Shown here in pieces: positions 1-5,193 of a stretch of DNA of 5,193 bases. This stretch comes from Candidatus Krumholzibacteriia bacterium (GTDB taxonomy: Bacteria; Krumholzibacteriota; Krumholzibacteria; WVZY01; JAKEHA01). The notes below the pieces were generated by a model. It saw nothing but the letters and a program-made list of their open reading frames with translations, was not told where the DNA came from and did no database searches. How positions within the stretch are numbered: position 1 is the first letter of the stretch; every line of letters begins with the position of its first letter. A program made the position numbers and the translations under genes. The stretch spans positions 1-5,193 of the forward strand of contig JAOTVO010000203.1 of the NCBI GenBank assembly GCA_029863355.1. Reading direction: 5' to 3'.

Positions 1-520
1 CGAGCTGGGGGTACGCACGATTTTCAACTTGTTGGGCCCGCTCACGAACCCGGCGCACGTGCGGCGGCAGGTGATGGGGATCTACGACCCGTCACTCACG
101 GAGACGGCCGCCGCGGTGCTGGCAGTGCTGGGCTCGGAGCGGGCCTATGTGGTGCACGGCATGGACGGCACGGACGAGGTGTCGGTGTGCAGTGACACGA
201 AAGTCACGGAGCTGCGCGACGGGCGCATCGAATCATTCGTTTTCAAGCCCGAGTCGGTCGGCATCAAGCGCTCGACACCGGAGGGGATCGCGGGCGGTAC
301 GCCAGCGGAGAACGCGAAAGCGATCGCCGCGATCCTCTCTGGCGAGCGCGGGCCCCGGCGCGACGCGGTGGTACTGAACGCGGCCTTCGCGATCACGGTG
401 GCGGGCGCGGCGAACACGGTGGCGGACGGGGTGGGGATGGCGGAGCTCTCTATCGACAGCGGCGCGGCGGCGGCCGCGCTGGAAGCGCTGCGCGTTACCT
501 CTGCTTCACTTTCAGACTGA
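1..520 (+). CDS. trpD: Anthranilate phosphoribosyltransferase, C-terminal half (5' end outside window)
   Basis: TrpD transfers phosphoribosyl from PRPP to anthranilate, the second step of tryptophan synthesis, in the cytoplasm. The reading frame enters at base 2 and ends with TGA at 518-520, giving 172 residues. Full TrpD is about 340, so roughly half is present. Visible family signatures are RTIFNLLGPLTNPA (fragment residues 5-18), the HGMDGTDE motif (52-59) whose Asp-Glu pair binds magnesium in this family, GGTPAENA (98-105) and the late helix VLNAAFAITVAG (124-135). No frameshift or internal stop is seen. An in-frame TTG at 29 is not a real start, because conserved sequence continues upstream of it. 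The last 26 bases overlap the tail of the convergent gene on the minus strand. The next trp gene on this strand lies more than 2.3 kb downstream with its own promoter, so trpD probably ends its own transcription unit. Identification is secure. Confidence 0.96.
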   Translation, partial: ELGVRTIFNLLGPLTNPAHVRRQVMGIYDPSLTETAAAVLAVLGSERAYVVHGMDGTDEVSVCSDTKVTELRDGRIESFVFKPESVGIKRSTPEGIAGGTPAENAKAIAAILSGERGPRRDAVVLNAAFAITVAGAANTVADGVGMAELSIDSGAAAAALEALRVTSASLSD

Positions 521-2114
521 CCACGAAGCTCTCCCCTTCTCTCTGAATCTTGAACATTACGGTGCCGTCGTCGCGCACGGTCTGCAGGAGGCTGCGGTGG
601 GCGGTGGCCTTGCGGGTCGCGAGGTCGAAGCCGTTGATACCCTCGATCACGTCGCCGGCGCGCACGCCGGCGATGTAGGCGTCGCTCGCCTGTGCGACGG
701 ACGTCACGGCGAAATCGTTGTCCCAGAACATGTCGTCGATCTTGGGCTCGAAGCCGAAGGGGTGGATGCGGCGGCGGCAGGTGTGCTCGAGCGTGGTGGG
801 GTAGGCGTGGCCCACGCGCACCATGAGGTCCCCCCCACCGGCGGCTTTGGCCAGGCCGGCCATGAACGGCTCGATGGGCGTCCAGATGGCCGCGCGCCCG
901 CGCTTGGCGCGGTTGACGTGCTCGACGATGATCCCGATGCCGTGCCGTTCGGCGATCTCGTGGAGGAGCCACGCGTAGGTGTTCTCGGCGCCGGCGTAAA
1001 TCTTGAGGAAGCGCTCCCTGCCCCACTTGGCGTTGTAGTCGTAGGGGACGGGCCAGGCGTCGGCGCCGAGCTTCTCCCACACGATGGGGATGAGGTAGTC
1101 GAACTGGTAGAAGTGGGACCAGTCGTCGGCGATGCGGCTGAAGGGCTGGAACTTCTCGCGGTCGCCGATGGAGGGCTGGAACGCGATGCGCGCCATCTCG
1201 TGGCCGAAGCCGATGATGCCGATGCCGTCGGGCGAGAGGAAATCCTCGGCGGTGGTATGGACGAAGCACCAGAAGGTACTGAGCGCGTCGGTGTACATCT
1301 TGGGTTTCCGTTGGTCGGCGGGGTCGGCATAGATGTAGACGGTGACGCGCTCGGGAAAGAGGAGGTGGTAGCGGTGGATGGCCTCGCAATAGGTGTCGAG
1401 GAGACGCGCGATGGTGCGCACGTCGGATTTGGCGAGGGTGTCGTAATGAATGGTCACGCGGGTGCCCTCCACGCGCGCGAGGCGCCGGGGATCTTTTTTC
1501 CATACGGCAAGGCTGTCAATTGTTATGGCATCGCCCCCTCTTTGCAGGGTGCCAGCGGCGATACCATCCTCCGGGAGCCATACGCCGTCGCTGTGCCGGC
1601 GCACGGCGAAGTCCCAGCCACTCAGGTCCGAGAAACCGGTGAAGACGCCGGGGATATGCTCGCTCGTCTGCGCGGTATAGACGAGGCAGACGCGGCGGGG
1701 CTTGCCGGTATCGGTGGGATGGGGCGCAGTGAAGACGGCGCGGATGTCGCGCCCGGCGTAGGACCGGCCCTGGATCTCGACGCGGTCGTCGAATAGCGCG
1801 AAGGGCGCCTGCGCGAGCGCGGCGCGCACGACGCGGTTCTGCGCCGCGGTGCCGATGGCGAAGAGGTCGTGCGCGGCGAGGAGCGAGTCGGACGCGGCGC
1901 TCTCCGCCACGACGGGCACGGGCACGCCGAGCTGGAGCTCGAGGTAGGACTGGACCCACTGCGCGTAGTCGGCGTGGGTGCCGTACACGATCAGCGGACG
2001 GCCCTCGAGCGCCTGCCGGCGGACCTGGTAGATGTCGGCCCGCACGGCGGGCGCAAGCGCGAGCGCTTGCGCGAGCGCTACGGTGAAAGCGGCACAGGCG
2101 ACGAAACGCGGCAT
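495..2114 (-). CDS. Exported protein with degenerate peptidase-MA-like centre and C-terminal PDZ domain
   Basis: The protein has 539 residues. Residues 1-26 look like a Sec signal peptide: a short basic start, an Ala/Leu/Val core and a likely cut after AVRA, so it should act outside the cytoplasmic membrane. Residues 35-175 form an alpha/beta-looking N-terminal region (LIVYGTHADY, FAIGTAAQN). Residues 215-400 resemble gluzincin/peptidase-MA-like domains, with GFGHEMAR at 302-309 followed by IVWEKLG at 344-350. In active members the first motif is HExxH and a downstream Glu is the third zinc ligand. Here the second His is Arg309, so zinc catalysis is doubtful. Residues about 465-535 form a PDZ domain with AGVRAGDVIEGING at 482-495. 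The ATG follows AAGGAG (plus-strand CTCCTT, 2119-2124) and lies one base after the stop of the upstream gene, so the two are translationally coupled. The substrate is unknown. It could be a pseudo-protease or binding protein. The domain assignment is by eye. Confidence 0.85.
   Translation of the reverse strand: MPRFVACAAFTVALAQALALAPAVRADIYQVRRQALEGRPLIVYGTHADYAQWVQSYLELQLGVPVPVVAESAASDSLLAAHDLFAIGTAAQNRVVRAALAQAPFALFDDRVEIQGRSYAGRDIRAVFTAPHPTDTGKPRRVCLVYTAQTSEHIPGVFTGFSDLSGWDFAVRRHSDGVWLPEDGIAAGTLQRGGDAITIDSLAVWKKDPRRLARVEGTRVTIHYDTLAKSDVRTIARLLDTYCEAIHRYHLLFPERVTVYIYADPADQRKPKMYTDALSTFWCFVHTTAEDFLSPDGIGIIGFGHEMARIAFQPSIGDREKFQPFSRIADDWSHFYQFDYLIPIVWEKLGADAWPVPYDYNAKWGRERFLKIYAGAENTYAWLLHEIAERHGIGIIVEHVNRAKRGRAAIWTPIEPFMAGLAKAAGGGDLMVRVGHAYPTTLEHTCRRRIHPFGFEPKIDDMFWDNDFAVTSVAQASDAYIAGVRAGDVIEGINGFDLATRKATAHRSLLQTVRDDGTVMFKIQREGESFVVSLKVKQR
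2051..2072. repeat. Perfect 10-bp inverted repeat inside a signal-peptide coding region
   Basis: GCGCAAGCGC (2051-2060) is followed by GA and then its exact reverse complement GCGCTTGCGC (2063-2072). It lies about 45 bases inside the minus-strand exported-protein gene and encodes part of the Ala/Leu-rich signal core. As RNA it would fold to a 9-bp stem with a 4-base loop. It may only reflect repeated Ala and Leu codons. Confidence 0.6.
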
Positions 2115-2115
2115 G

Positions 2116-2553
2116 TCACTCCTTCAAGTACAAAGACGAGCTGCCGTAGTCGATCACGGCGGACTGGGCGTCGAACACGTCGGCGCCGAGGATAGCGTCG
2201 ATGGGCGCGCACCCCTTGCAGGCGAGGCCCTCGTTGACGTGCGAGAGGTCCATCGCCATCAGGGTGCGCACGCGCGGGGCGACGTCGCCGAGGGTGAGCG
2301 TGCCGCCGGTGGTGGCGTAGACGTCGAGCGTCACGCCGCCGGCGCCCCCGCCGCGGGTTTCCTGCCGCTCCATGCCGAGGCCCAGCTCGGTCGCCAGGGT
2401 CAGGCTCACGATGGTGGCGCCGGCCCCCGTGTCGACGATCACCGTCACGGGGCGCCCGTTGACGGCGCCCTCGGTCTGGAAGTGGCCGGCGGGGTTGCGG
2501 GAGAGCGGAACGCGGCGGTAGCCGTCCTGGAGGAGAAAGGTTTCGAGATTCAT
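2116..2553 (-). CDS. Retropepsin-like (clan AA) aspartic protease homologue
   Basis: This 145-residue protein matches the bacterial clan AA aspartic protease pattern. It has a beta-strand entry GRPVTVIV, the catalytic-type triad Asp41-Thr42-Gly43 in VIVDTGAGATIVS, and a C-terminal PIDAILGADVFDAQSAVIDY (117-136) that matches the family's ILG-D...IDY signature. Such domains act as homodimers with one Asp per subunit. The length fits a single domain with little else. There is no signal peptide or membrane segment. Residues 112-115 hold a CKGC pair that could bind metal or form a disulphide. The ATG at 2551-2553 has AGGA six bases upstream (plus-strand 2560-2563). It is the first gene of a two-gene minus-strand unit, and its TGA is one base before the ATG of the exported PDZ protein, which suggests a joint function. 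The fold is likely; proteolytic activity and substrate are inference. Confidence 0.85.
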   Translation of the reverse strand: MNLETFLLQDGYRRVPLSRNPAGHFQTEGAVNGRPVTVIVDTGAGATIVSLTLATELGLGMERQETRGGGAGGVTLDVYATTGGTLTLGDVAPRVRTLMAMDLSHVNEGLACKGCAPIDAILGADVFDAQSAVIDYGSSSLYLKE

Positions 2554-2611: not shown

Positions 2612-2641
2612 TTGACACGGCCCCCCTGCAACCGCTACACT
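2612..2641 (+). promoter_or_regulatory. Sigma70-type promoter of the trp leader and trpCFB
   Basis: A perfect -35 box TTGACA (2612-2617) is separated by 18 bases from TACACT (2636-2641), a four-of-six match to the -10 consensus. The expected transcription start is about 2647-2650, immediately before the leader-peptide ATG at 2652, so the leader mRNA would have almost no 5' untranslated region. It faces away from the minus-strand pair and is the only clear promoter between that pair and trpC. Confidence 0.7.
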
Positions 2642-2651
2642 ATTCCTTGTC

Positions 2652-2717
2652 ATGAGTCGCCTGAGCCAAGCCACGATGCTCGATCCGCACCGATTTTGGT
2701 GTTGGTATCCCCGCTAG
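2652..2717 (+). CDS. trpL: trp leader peptide (attenuation peptide), 21 aa
   Basis: This short frame starts at ATG 2652 and stops at TAG 2715-2717. It encodes 21 residues ending in FWCWYPR, with Trp codons at 2697-2699 and 2703-2705. Two Trp codons so close together, just before a stop and a terminator upstream of trpC, are the hallmark of a leader peptide whose translation senses charged tRNA-Trp. No Shine-Dalgarno precedes either ATG 2652 or the alternative in-frame ATG 2676 (13 residues). With the promoter predicted at 2612-2641, translation at 2652 would be leaderless or nearly so. Known Sinorhizobium meliloti trpL is translated from a leaderless transcript, which gives a precedent. The peptide itself probably has no enzymatic role. 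The main uncertainty is which ATG is used, not whether the element is real. Confidence 0.88.
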   Translation: MSRLSQATMLDPHRFWCWYPR

Positions 2718-2792
2718 GGATAGTGGGCTCGTTGCTGGCCTGGGCGAAGTAGTCACTCACATACTAACCTGATTCGCAACCACCCGCTATCC
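2706..2792 (+). promoter_or_regulatory. trp attenuator: pause hairpin (1:2) and antiterminator (2:3)
   Basis: Segment 1, TATCCC (2706-2711), overlaps the leader's last codons and pairs perfectly with GGGATA (2717-2722) across a 5-base loop to form the pause hairpin. Segment 2, GGATAGTGGG (2718-2727), pairs over ten positions, one a G-U wobble, with segment 3, CCCGCTATCC (2783-2792). A further 5-bp stem, GTTGC 2731-2735 with GCAAC 2776-2780, extends it. Segment 3 is also the left arm of the terminator, so the two structures exclude each other. A ribosome stalled at the Trp codons would cover segment 1 and free segment 2 to make the antiterminator. A ribosome at the TAG stop would cover segment 2 and let the terminator form. 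Pairing is read directly from the sequence; the mechanism follows the classical enteric model. Confidence 0.87.
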
Positions 2793-2813
2793 GAGAGGAA
2801 GCGGGCTTTTTTT
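2783..2813 (+). terminator. Intrinsic terminator of the trp attenuator (3:4 hairpin)
   Basis: CCCGCT (2783-2788) and TCC (2790-2792) pair with GGA (2797-2799) and AGCGGG (2800-2805). This gives a 9-bp stem with one bulged A (2789) and a GAGA tetraloop. One C and then seven T's (2807-2813) follow. The right arm and T-run lie before the trpC ribosome-binding site, so termination here would give a leader RNA of about 165 bases and no trpC expression. Confidence 0.93.
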
Positions 2814-2837: not shown

Positions 2838-3623
2838 ATGGGGTTCCTGGAGACGATCGTTGCTGAGAAGCGGGATGACGTAATAAGGAAGTCGCGCGCG
2901 GTGCCGCTGGCGCGCCTCGAGGATGCTGCGAAGGCGGTACCGTTGCGCGACTTCCGAGCCGCTCTCTTGGGGCGCGCGGGGTCTGTGATCGCGGAGCTGA
3001 AGCTCCGGACGCCTACGATCCCAGGCTTCGCGAACGGCGGCGACCCGGCGGCCCTGGCGTGTATATACGCAGAGGCGGGCGCGGCGGCGGTGAGCGTGGT
3101 GACGGAGGCGGCGCGCTTCGGCACCTCTCTGGAGACAGTTACCTACGTGCGTATGGCGGTGGACCTGCCGGTCCTGGCGAAGGACTTCGTGATCGACCCG
3201 TACCAGATCGTCGAGGCGCGGGCGGCGGGAGCGGATGCGGTGCTTCTCATTGCACGGTTGGTGGATGGTTCGTTACTCGCCGATTTGGTAGGGCGGGTTC
3301 AAGGATTGGGGATGGAAGCGATTGTGGAAGTGCATGATGAAAAGGATTTGGATTCCGCGCGTGCTGCGCACGCGCGGTGTGTGGGCCTCAACAACCGGAA
3401 CCTCGACACGATGGAAGTTTCTTTGGACACGACGCGGCGGCTGGCGCCGCTGGTGCCCGCGGACGTGACGGTGATCGCGGAGAGCGGCATTCGCACGCGC
3501 GCGGACATCGACGACCTGGCGGCGCACGGCGCGCAGGCCTTTCTGGTGGGCGGGGCGCTCTTGGAGGCAGAGGACCCGGGCGCGTTGTTGCGCGCCCTGA
3601 CGACGAAGGAGGTGGCGGCATGA
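2838..3623 (+). CDS. trpC: Indole-3-glycerol phosphate synthase
   Basis: TrpC closes the indole ring of CdRP, with loss of CO2 and water, to give indole-3-glycerol phosphate. The 261-residue length is normal for a single-domain (beta/alpha)8 enzyme. Family catalytic residues are all seen: Glu53 and Lys55 in VIAELK, Lys115 in LPVLAKDFVID, Glu164 in IVEVHDE, Asn185 in GLNNRNL and Ser216 in AESGI. DPYQIVEARAAGADAVLLIA (120-139) is also typical. Some normally well-kept positions differ. The usual KRxSPS segment reads KLRTPT (55-60), and LRKDF reads LAKDF. ATG 2838 is preceded by GGGAGG (2824-2829) at a good distance. The gene is the first structural gene behind the attenuator, and its TGA overlaps the ATG of trpF (ATGA at 3620-3623). 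Function is confident, and the active site looks intact. Confidence 0.95.
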   Translation: MGFLETIVAEKRDDVIRKSRAVPLARLEDAAKAVPLRDFRAALLGRAGSVIAELKLRTPTIPGFANGGDPAALACIYAEAGAAAVSVVTEAARFGTSLETVTYVRMAVDLPVLAKDFVIDPYQIVEARAAGADAVLLIARLVDGSLLADLVGRVQGLGMEAIVEVHDEKDLDSARAAHARCVGLNNRNLDTMEVSLDTTRRLAPLVPADVTVIAESGIRTRADIDDLAAHGAQAFLVGGALLEAEDPGALLRALTTKEVAA

Positions 3624-4264
3624 GCAGAGCACGGGTGAAGATCTGCGGCATCATGACCCCCGAGGACGCGCGCATGGCCTACGCGGCGGGCGCGGACTAC
3701 CTGGGCCTCATCTTCACGGACAGCGCGCGCCAGGTGGACGCGGCGCGCGCGCGCAAGATTCGCGAGGCGGTGCCGGACGTAAAACTGGTGGGCGTCTTTC
3801 GCGACGCGCCGGCGGAGGAAGTGGCGGCGACGGTGCGCCATAGTGGCGTCGACCTGGTGCAGCTCCACGGGCGCGAGACGCCGGGCTATTGCGCGCGCGT
3901 GCTGCTCTTGGCGGGCCGCCCGGTGATCAAGGCCTTCGCCTTGAATGGGCGCGCGTTTCCGGACACGAGCGGCCTGGCCGCCTACGAATCGGCGAGCTTC
4001 ATCCTCTTCGACACGGACAAGAACGGCGGCGGGCCGGCGATCCCGGAAGACGTGGCGGCGCGCATCTGGCCGGAGGCGGCGCGGCGGCGGCGGCAGGGCT
4101 TCCGCATCTTCCTCGCCGGCGCGCTGGATCCGCAGAACGTGCGCGAGGCGGTGGCGGTGACGAGCGCCTTCTGCGTGGATGTCTGCCGCGGCGTGGAGAG
4201 CGCGCCCGGTATCAAGGACGCCGCCCTGGTGCAGCGCTTCATCGCGGAGGCGAAACGGCATTGA
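3620..4264 (+). CDS. trpF: Phosphoribosylanthranilate isomerase
   Basis: TrpF isomerises N-(5-phosphoribosyl)anthranilate to CdRP, between the TrpD and TrpC steps. It is 214 residues long, normal for this monofunctional (beta/alpha)8 enzyme. The N-terminal VKICGI (residues 6-11) holds the catalytic Cys. [14 protein letters not shown] carries the catalytic-type Asp and the phosphate-loop glycines. [14 protein letters not shown] and [16 protein letters not shown] are the late phosphate-binding strands. The usual VDVSSGVE reads VDVCRGVE, and the usual SPRxV reads SARQV, both mild departures. The start is fixed by a textbook AAGGAGGT (3606-3613) six bases upstream, inside the end of trpC, with an ATGA stop/start overlap that implies translational coupling. 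A longer open frame running upstream to 3377 in the same phase is only an extension into trpC. Its TGA overlaps the trpB start. Confidence 0.95.
4246..4250 (+). promoter_or_regulatory. Ribosome-binding site that fixes the TTG start of trpB
   Basis: GGAGG inside the last codons of trpF lies ten bases before TTG 4261, which overlaps the trpF stop as TTGA. It supports TTG 4261 over the second in-frame TTG at 4282, which has only a weaker purine stretch before it. No ATG exists in frame before the first conserved TrpB residues. Confidence 0.7.
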
Positions 4265-5193
4265 GCGGCCGGGAAGAGACGTTGCGCGCGGACGAAAAGG
4301 CCCGCGCCCGCAGGGGACGCTTCGGCGCCTACGGGGGCCAGTACGTCCCCGAGACGCTCATGCCCTGCCTGGAGGAGCTGGAGGCGGCGTACGCGTCGGC
4401 GCTCACCGATCCTGCGTTCGCAGAGGAGCTGAAAGGCCTTCTGCGCGCGTTCGGGGGGCGCCCGACGCCGCTTCTCTTTGCCGAACGCTGGAGCGAGCGT
4501 TTCGGCGGCGGCGCGCGTGTGCACTTGAAGCGCGAGGACCTGGCGCACACGGGCGCGCACAAGATCAACAACTGCCTGGGGCAGGCGATCCTGGCGCGGC
4601 GCATGGGCAAGACACGCATCGTCGCGGAGACGGGCGCGGGTCAGCACGGCGTGGCCACGGCCGCGGTGTGCGCGCGCTTCGGCCTGGACTGCACGATCTA
4701 CATGGGCGAGGTGGACATGGCGCGCCAGCGCCCCAACGTGCTGCGCATGCGCCTCCTGGGCGCGGAGGTGATTCCGGTGCGCGCGGGCACGCGCACGCTC
4801 AAGGACGCCACCAACGAGACCATCCGCGACTGGGTGACGAACGTGCGCACGACGCACTACATCATCGGCTCCGCGGTGGGTCCGCACCCCTACCCCACCA
4901 TCGTGCGCGATTTCCAGCGCGTGATCGGCGACGAGACGCGCGCGCAGATCGTGGAGGCTAACGGAAGCCTCCCCGACGGTGTGATCGCTTGCGTGGGCGG
5001 CGGCTCGAACGCCATCGGCATCTTCTCGGCGTTTCTCGACGACCGGGACGTGCGCCTCTACGGCGTGGAGGCCGGCGGCTCGAGCGAGGGGCACGCCGCC
5101 GCGCTCGACCGGGGGCGCCCCGGCGTGTTGCACGGGGCGCTCTCGTATCTTCTGCAGAACGAGGATGGGCAGGTGATCGGCGCGCACTCGGTG
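4261..5193 (+). CDS. trpB: Tryptophan synthase beta chain (3' end outside window)
   Basis: TrpB uses PLP to condense serine with indole supplied by TrpA. The frame runs from TTG 4261 to the window edge, 311 residues of an expected 400 or so. The fold begins with the hallmark [16 protein letters not shown] (19-34). [17 protein letters not shown] (88-104) carries the PLP Schiff-base Lys101. Glu123 in AETGAGQHG (122-130) is the catalytic acid equivalent. CVGGGSN (244-250) is the PLP phosphate loop. [21 protein letters not shown] (150-170) is the classical TrpB1-type COMM region rather than TrpB2. Residues 1-18 are a charged extension before the conserved start ([14 protein letters not shown]). 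The gene was easy to miss because it starts with TTG and runs off the edge. It overlaps the trpF stop by four bases, and trpA is the expected next gene. Confidence 0.95.

Follow-up and report, generated by a model that had tools for sequence, protein, structure and literature searches.

The trpL-trpE leader of Escherichia coli operates by an alternative hairpin logic (PMC1183508), and in Sinorhizobium meliloti the RNA rnTrpL, which starts with the ATG of trpL, destabilizes trpDC mRNA in trans (PMC7298713). Classical attenuators with double or triple UGG codons and a conserved gGCC-rGCy-GGCC triple have been predicted in Corynebacterium and Streptomyces, including those before trpB1EDGC and trpB2A of C. 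diphtheriae and one before trpS2 of a streptomycete (PMC1262725). For Pseudomonas putida, Olekhnovich and Gussin 2001 name a trpGDC attenuator in their title, as cited in PMC8297930; the citing paper itself describes premature 3' ends before trpGDC of P. aeruginosa, which lie beside a possible uORF and were called regulated in azithromycin-treated biofilms only. For the trpC-led operon trpCXBA of S. coelicolor, the available text of PMC5036795 mentions no leader attenuator. The trp leader of Bacillus subtilis carries 11 (G/U)AG triplets (PMC4027176). With regard to phylogenetic range, leader-peptide systems besides that of ermC had, to the knowledge of the authors of PMC2965389 in 2010, been demonstrated in no phyla other than Proteobacteria and Actinobacteria, and a histidine leader-peptide case in Firmicutes was new in that study.

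Here, we analyzed a stretch of DNA of 5,193 nucleotides (the window), in which positions 2652-2813 very probably constitute a ribosome-mediated trp attenuator that would sense charged tRNA-Trp and control trpC-trpF-trpB. As in E. coli trpL-trpE, a short frame with Trp codons is combined with a terminator that ends in a T-run, and the same detector finds both; however, the E. coli leader peptide has 14 residues with adjacent Trp residues (WW) and precedes trpE, whereas the frame in the window encodes 21 residues with W-C-W and precedes trpC. Among known systems, S. meliloti rnTrpL most closely resembles the W-x-W leader described here, which is predicted to be near-leaderless: the RNA starts at the ATG in S. 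meliloti and is predicted to start near it in the window, the trp genes are on separate operons in both, and the Trp residues are at positions 10 and 12 in S. meliloti vs 16 and 18 in the window (PMC7298713). The two differ in that trpL of S. meliloti precedes trpE(G), with trpDC being affected in trans, while the leader in the window precedes trpC directly.

The original prediction emphasized that the element stands before trpC and not before trpE. This position holds, but it is less singular than implied, because attenuators before trp operons that are not led by trpE have been predicted (trpB2A) or reported (trpGDC). The C. diphtheriae trpB2A operon resembles that of the window in being a late-gene operon with its own, already predicted attenuator, although Corynebacterium and Streptomyces belong to another phylum and have another gene order. 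Similarly, P. putida has split trp genes and an attenuated operon that is not led by trpE, but this operon begins with trpG and contains trpD, unlike the trpC-led operon of the window. In the literature searched, we found no description of a leader attenuator directly before trpC; most subscription papers lay outside this search, and the absence is unproven. The same search found no literature joining "Krumholzibacteria" and "leader peptide." The mechanism is a known one, in an uncommon place and in an under-described lineage.

Organization of the trp genes and of the putative trpC leader

The features of the window are collected in Table 1. Pfam matches identify the genes downstream of the element as trpC, trpF, and trpB, in agreement with the original prediction; trpB may start at the TTG at 4261, its start codon not being settled. 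The gap between the nearest inverted gene and trpC is 284 nt. By splitting the trp genes, the minus-strand gene pair would leave trpC in need of its own promoter and control. Because trpD ends 2.1 kb before the predicted promoter and behind two inverted genes, it would not be on the trpC transcript. The claim that trpD is outside the reach of the element is thus correct for this promoter, and for this promoter only.

Within the minus-strand pair, the retropepsin-like gene stands directly before the gene for the 539-aa protein. The latter protein appears to be close to an orphan family and had, among 7,998 scored candidates, one scored homologue (P0121, 91%), which is encoded on a metagenome contig of 2,399 bases.

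Table 1. Features of the window, with coordinates given on the forward strand; the roles of the promoter and leader elements are predicted
Feature	Position	Strand	Details
trpD, 3' part	2..520	+	PF00591, E 5.7e-47
Two genes between trpD and trpC	495-2553	-	
Gene for 539-aa protein	about 495/498-2114	-	Weak C-terminal PDZ match, 22 bits (Pfam cut-off 27)
Gene with retropepsin-like aspartyl protease domain	2116-2553	-	PF13650, E 8.8e-13
Sigma-70-like promoter	2612..2641	+	TTGACA-18 nt-TACACT; 10/12 consensus matches
Leader peptide frame	2652..2717	+	MSRLSQATMLDPHRFWCWYPR-stop; 21 codons; W16-C17-W18, proposed regulatory codons
Pause (1:2) hairpin	2706..2722	+	2706-2711/2717-2722
Antiterminator	2718-2727/2783-2792	+	10 pairs, one G-U; 5' arm is region 2
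Second antiterminator helix	2731-2735/2776-2780	+	Missed by the original prediction
Intrinsic terminator	2783..2813	+	Stem 2783-2805 with one bulged A, loop GAGA, T7 at 2807-2813
trpC, indole-3-glycerol phosphate synthase	2838..3623	+	PF00218, E 9.9e-71; GGGAGG upstream
trpF	3620..4264	+	PF00697, E 8.4e-39; ATGA overlap with trpC
trpB, 5' part	4261..5193	+	PF00291, E 1.8e-35 for 4264-5193; continues past the window end

Upstream of the leader frame, a putative promoter was recognized by consensus match alone; it is the one promoter-like site found in 2500-2900, where 0.2 would be expected from shuffles. Transcription usually starts 5 to 9 nt after the -10 box, which would place the RNA start at about 2646-2650. 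Since the leader ATG follows the -10 box by 10 nt, it would lie at or a few bases from the RNA 5' end. The putative leader frame provides closely spaced Trp codons upstream of trp genes (TGG TGT TGG at 2697-2705, ahead of the stop codon at 2715-2717); Trp accounts for 15 of the 1469 residues encoded by trpC, trpF, the 5' part of trpB, and the minus-strand gene pair. No Shine-Dalgarno site precedes the leader ATG, and we count this against the attenuator reading.

An overlapping 46-codon frame on the plus strand (2612-2752) holds one Trp. Because this frame starts with a TTG located within the -35 box, it would be absent from the predicted RNA.

Mutually exclusive hairpins and a simulated ribosome switch

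Read directly from the sequence, the frame and its codons, the alternative pairings, the T-run, and the gene order bear out the original prediction, which had placed a leader with Trp-Cys-Trp, a pause hairpin, an antiterminator, and a terminator with seven T's at these positions. The terminator hairpin (-15.1 kcal/mol) is on the same strand as the leader frame and the first structural gene and lies between them, 24 nt from the trpC ATG. Antiterminator and terminator exclude each other, with 2783-2792 being common to both. In folds without a ribosome, the full leader adopted the terminator with a probability of 0.97-1.0, and the pause hairpin had a pairing probability of 0.47-0.61; transcription may pause at the latter. 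With a ribosome edge at 2714-2717, the 10-pair antiterminator helix had a probability of 0.98-1.0. The second antiterminator helix reached 0.98-0.99 when the ribosome was stalled at W16 or W18.

Our own detector gave three terminator matches on the plus strand of the window, of which only the one in the trpC leader is intergenic, and none on the minus strand, for which the hairpin is no terminator because it lacks an A-run. A consensus terminator scan listed none in 2500-2900; the bulged stem is outside the stem and loop limits of that scan, and the terminator call is therefore based on our detector together with the folds. The overall stability of the leader was only mildly unusual (z -1.8, with 8 of 200 shuffles being equally stable); we take the layout, and not the stability, as the evidence.

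We modeled the switch as the equilibrium fold of the RNA beyond an assumed ribosome edge, which was set at the start of the A-site codon + 12. Simulated stalls at W16, C17, W18, and Y19 gave antiterminator probabilities of 0.97, 0.79, 0.99, and 0.26, respectively, while a ribosome at P20, R21, or the stop codon gave 0.00 for the antiterminator and 0.99 for the terminator. When the edge was moved one base at a time, the switch boundary was between edges 2717 and 2719. With this assumed footprint, a ribosome on the Trp codons would free the antiterminator arm, and a ribosome on the stop codon would mask it. Stalls at codons 3-9 and 14-15 also favored the antiterminator (0.81-0.97), and stalls at codons 10-12 gave antiterminator probabilities of 0.05-0.23. 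In the equilibrium model, antiterminator formation is hence not confined to stalls at Trp codons, which argues against a simple picture. For the E. coli trp attenuator, in which the co-transcriptional order matters, the same model gave the terminator at 0.94-0.95 even when the ribosome was stalled. Because the model fails on the E. coli attenuator, we use it as a plausibility check and not as a validated predictor; the comparison also suggests that the thermodynamic balance between antiterminator and terminator is shifted further toward the antiterminator in the window than in E. coli. The ribosome-dependent switch under assumed edges is an in silico result, which shows that the parts would be able to work as a switch and does not imply that they do.

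In vivo, we propose, RNA polymerase would start at about 2646-2652, followed by a ribosome that translates the leader of 21 codons. When Trp-tRNA is scarce, this ribosome would halt at W16 or W18 and cover part or all of 2706-2711, thereby leaving 2718-2727 free; the antiterminator (2718-2727/2783-2792 together with 2731-2735/2776-2780) would form, and the polymerase would read into trpC-trpF-trpB. With ample Trp-tRNA, in contrast, the ribosome would reach the stop codon at 2715-2717 and cover 2718-2727, so that the terminator stem 2783-2805 would form and transcription would end at about 2807-2813. Untranslated RNA would also take the terminator fold.

A role in trans, either additional to the function in cis or replacing it, is conceivable for the short frame or for the terminated leader RNA (approximately 160 nt), in analogy to Sinorhizobium rnTrpL and its peptide. 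The leader ATG, which is predicted to coincide with the RNA start or to lie close to it, is reminiscent of S. meliloti rnTrpL (PMC7298713), and trpD is on a separate transcript here, but the cis logic alone accounts for the sequence, and we consider a role in trans unlikely.

Chance level and other explanations for the leader

We also considered that a plain intrinsic terminator constitutively limits read-through into trpC, with a Trp-containing ORF upstream of it by chance and no ribosome sensing. As a null, we used 155,924 dinucleotide-preserving shuffles of 2567-2837 and a detector that had been corrected on the E. coli control. Separately, the parts were common, with any terminator-like hairpin in 17,802 and any Trp-rich short leader frame in 10,767 of these shuffles. 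In contrast, a terminator downstream of a Trp-rich leader occurred in 264 of the 155,924 shuffles, and a working switch was found in 17 using loose thresholds and in 2 using strict, window-like thresholds, which were set after seeing the window. Moreover, the 5' arm of the 10-pair antiterminator starts at the base right after the leader stop codon, a position at which a ribosome terminating translation would mask it. Finally, there is no recognizable plus-strand gene between the end of trpD (520) and the leader that would need a terminator: the longer plus-strand frames between the trpD end and the promoter are antisense to the two minus-strand genes, and the three such frames that were scanned had no Pfam match. 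A plain terminator with a chance ORF is, in our assessment, very unlikely.

As a control using real sequences, 113 trpC loci (1,921,462 strand-summed bases, in which L081-L084 repeat four genomes) were found to contain 59 leader-terminator pairs and 1 loose switch, which is in L015 and does not adjoin trpC. The L015 case is an isolated leader and terminator on the reverse strand (11376-11510) of a Dehalococcoidia contig that passes the loose switch test.

A terminator upstream of trp genes is also a feature of T-box and TRAP leaders, but such a Trp-responsive leader is extremely improbable here: neither requires a leader peptide with Trp codons, a search of Rfam to an E value of 5 matched no T-box, and 2649-2837 (189 nt) has 8 irregularly spaced (G/U)AG triplets instead of the about 11 regular repeats of a TRAP binding site. 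In fact, this Rfam search yielded no element of any kind that overlapped the leader. The order and strand of the parts, the in silico ribosome geometry, the chance level, and the lack of Rfam overlap thus support the ribosome-mediated attenuator that had originally been predicted. The Rfam match to L31-Actinobacteria at 2999-3053 (E 1; 21.6 bits, with a cut-off of 35) is internal to trpC, and we regard it as a chance match.

Relatives of TrpC and TrpB

Among the listed proteins, the closest relative of TrpC was P0002 (87%), which is encoded on a JGI metagenome contig of 17,282 bases; the next ones were P0003 (64% over 98% of the query) and P0068 (67% over 84%). The 120 listed relatives of TrpB include P0122 (94%; longest contig 17,282 bases) and P0123 (86%), and the lineage-named matches among these 120 were P0127 (77%) from Latescibacterota and P0145, P0230, and P0238 (72-76%) from Krumholzibacteria. 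We calculated a TrpC tree of 160 rows, which represent the window, 85 loci, and 74 of the 119 further proteins listed. In this tree, the window and the 74 proteins formed a 75-row clade (SH-aLRT 99) without any locus row, and P0075 from Candidatus Latescibacteria is the sole lineage-named protein in the clade. On the basis of these two proteins, TrpC and TrpB, we tentatively assign the organism to this part of the FCB group. No TrpC relatives were found in viral contigs.

A wider reading, which is less likely than not to hold in all its parts, would be that ribosome-mediated attenuation operates in a candidate-phylum bacterium near Latescibacterota/Krumholzibacteria and that the pathway is split there, such that the late steps (trpC-trpF-trpB) may have their own near-leaderless Trp sensor, acting either on its own or in coordination, in trans, with the genes for making anthranilate. 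The attenuator would extend a textbook mechanism to a lineage for which there is no report in the literature searched, as well as to a trpC-led operon. If the other trp genes are separately controlled, one could ask whether each splitting of an operon leads to a new attenuator and what advantage there is in tuning the late steps of the pathway alone.

Survey of trpC and trpE loci for similar leaders

We collected 233 trpC loci, which represent the best matches of each search only, and scanned 225 of them after the removal of 8 duplicates; 13 of the 225 had <700 nt upstream. trpC is possibly the first gene in 33 of the 225 loci; in 22 of these, the nearest 100-codon frame on the same strand is 120 nt or more upstream, and the other 11 have no such frame in the stretch. 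A leader with a terminator was present in a single locus (L119), which failed the switch test. Among the 225 loci, there was hence no convincing equivalent attenuator, and we count this against the attenuator reading. As a control, we scanned 60 trpE loci, to which the phyla of L028 and L006 contributed 30 each (the best ones among 60 genomes per phylum), and found a leader with a terminator in 6 of the 60. None of the 60 passed the switch test, with L251 being unscorable at the stop codon; the sensitivity of the survey is therefore low, and its negative result for trpC is weak. These data suggest that an attenuator before trpC is uncommon, while absence elsewhere cannot be shown by this survey.

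A TrpC search of genome contigs gave best segments of 57-58%. In a simple scan upstream of 80 such loci (up to 700 nt each), 10 had a short frame and a terminator; judged from peptide and position, and not case by case, these are likely coding-sequence or chance cases. Among the 6 trpE loci with a leader and a terminator, L251 has upstream of trpE a leader that ends in RWRWRA, with a GC-rich hairpin and a T-rich tail 9 nt past the stop codon. This is likely an attenuator before trpE and the sole plausible one of the 6.
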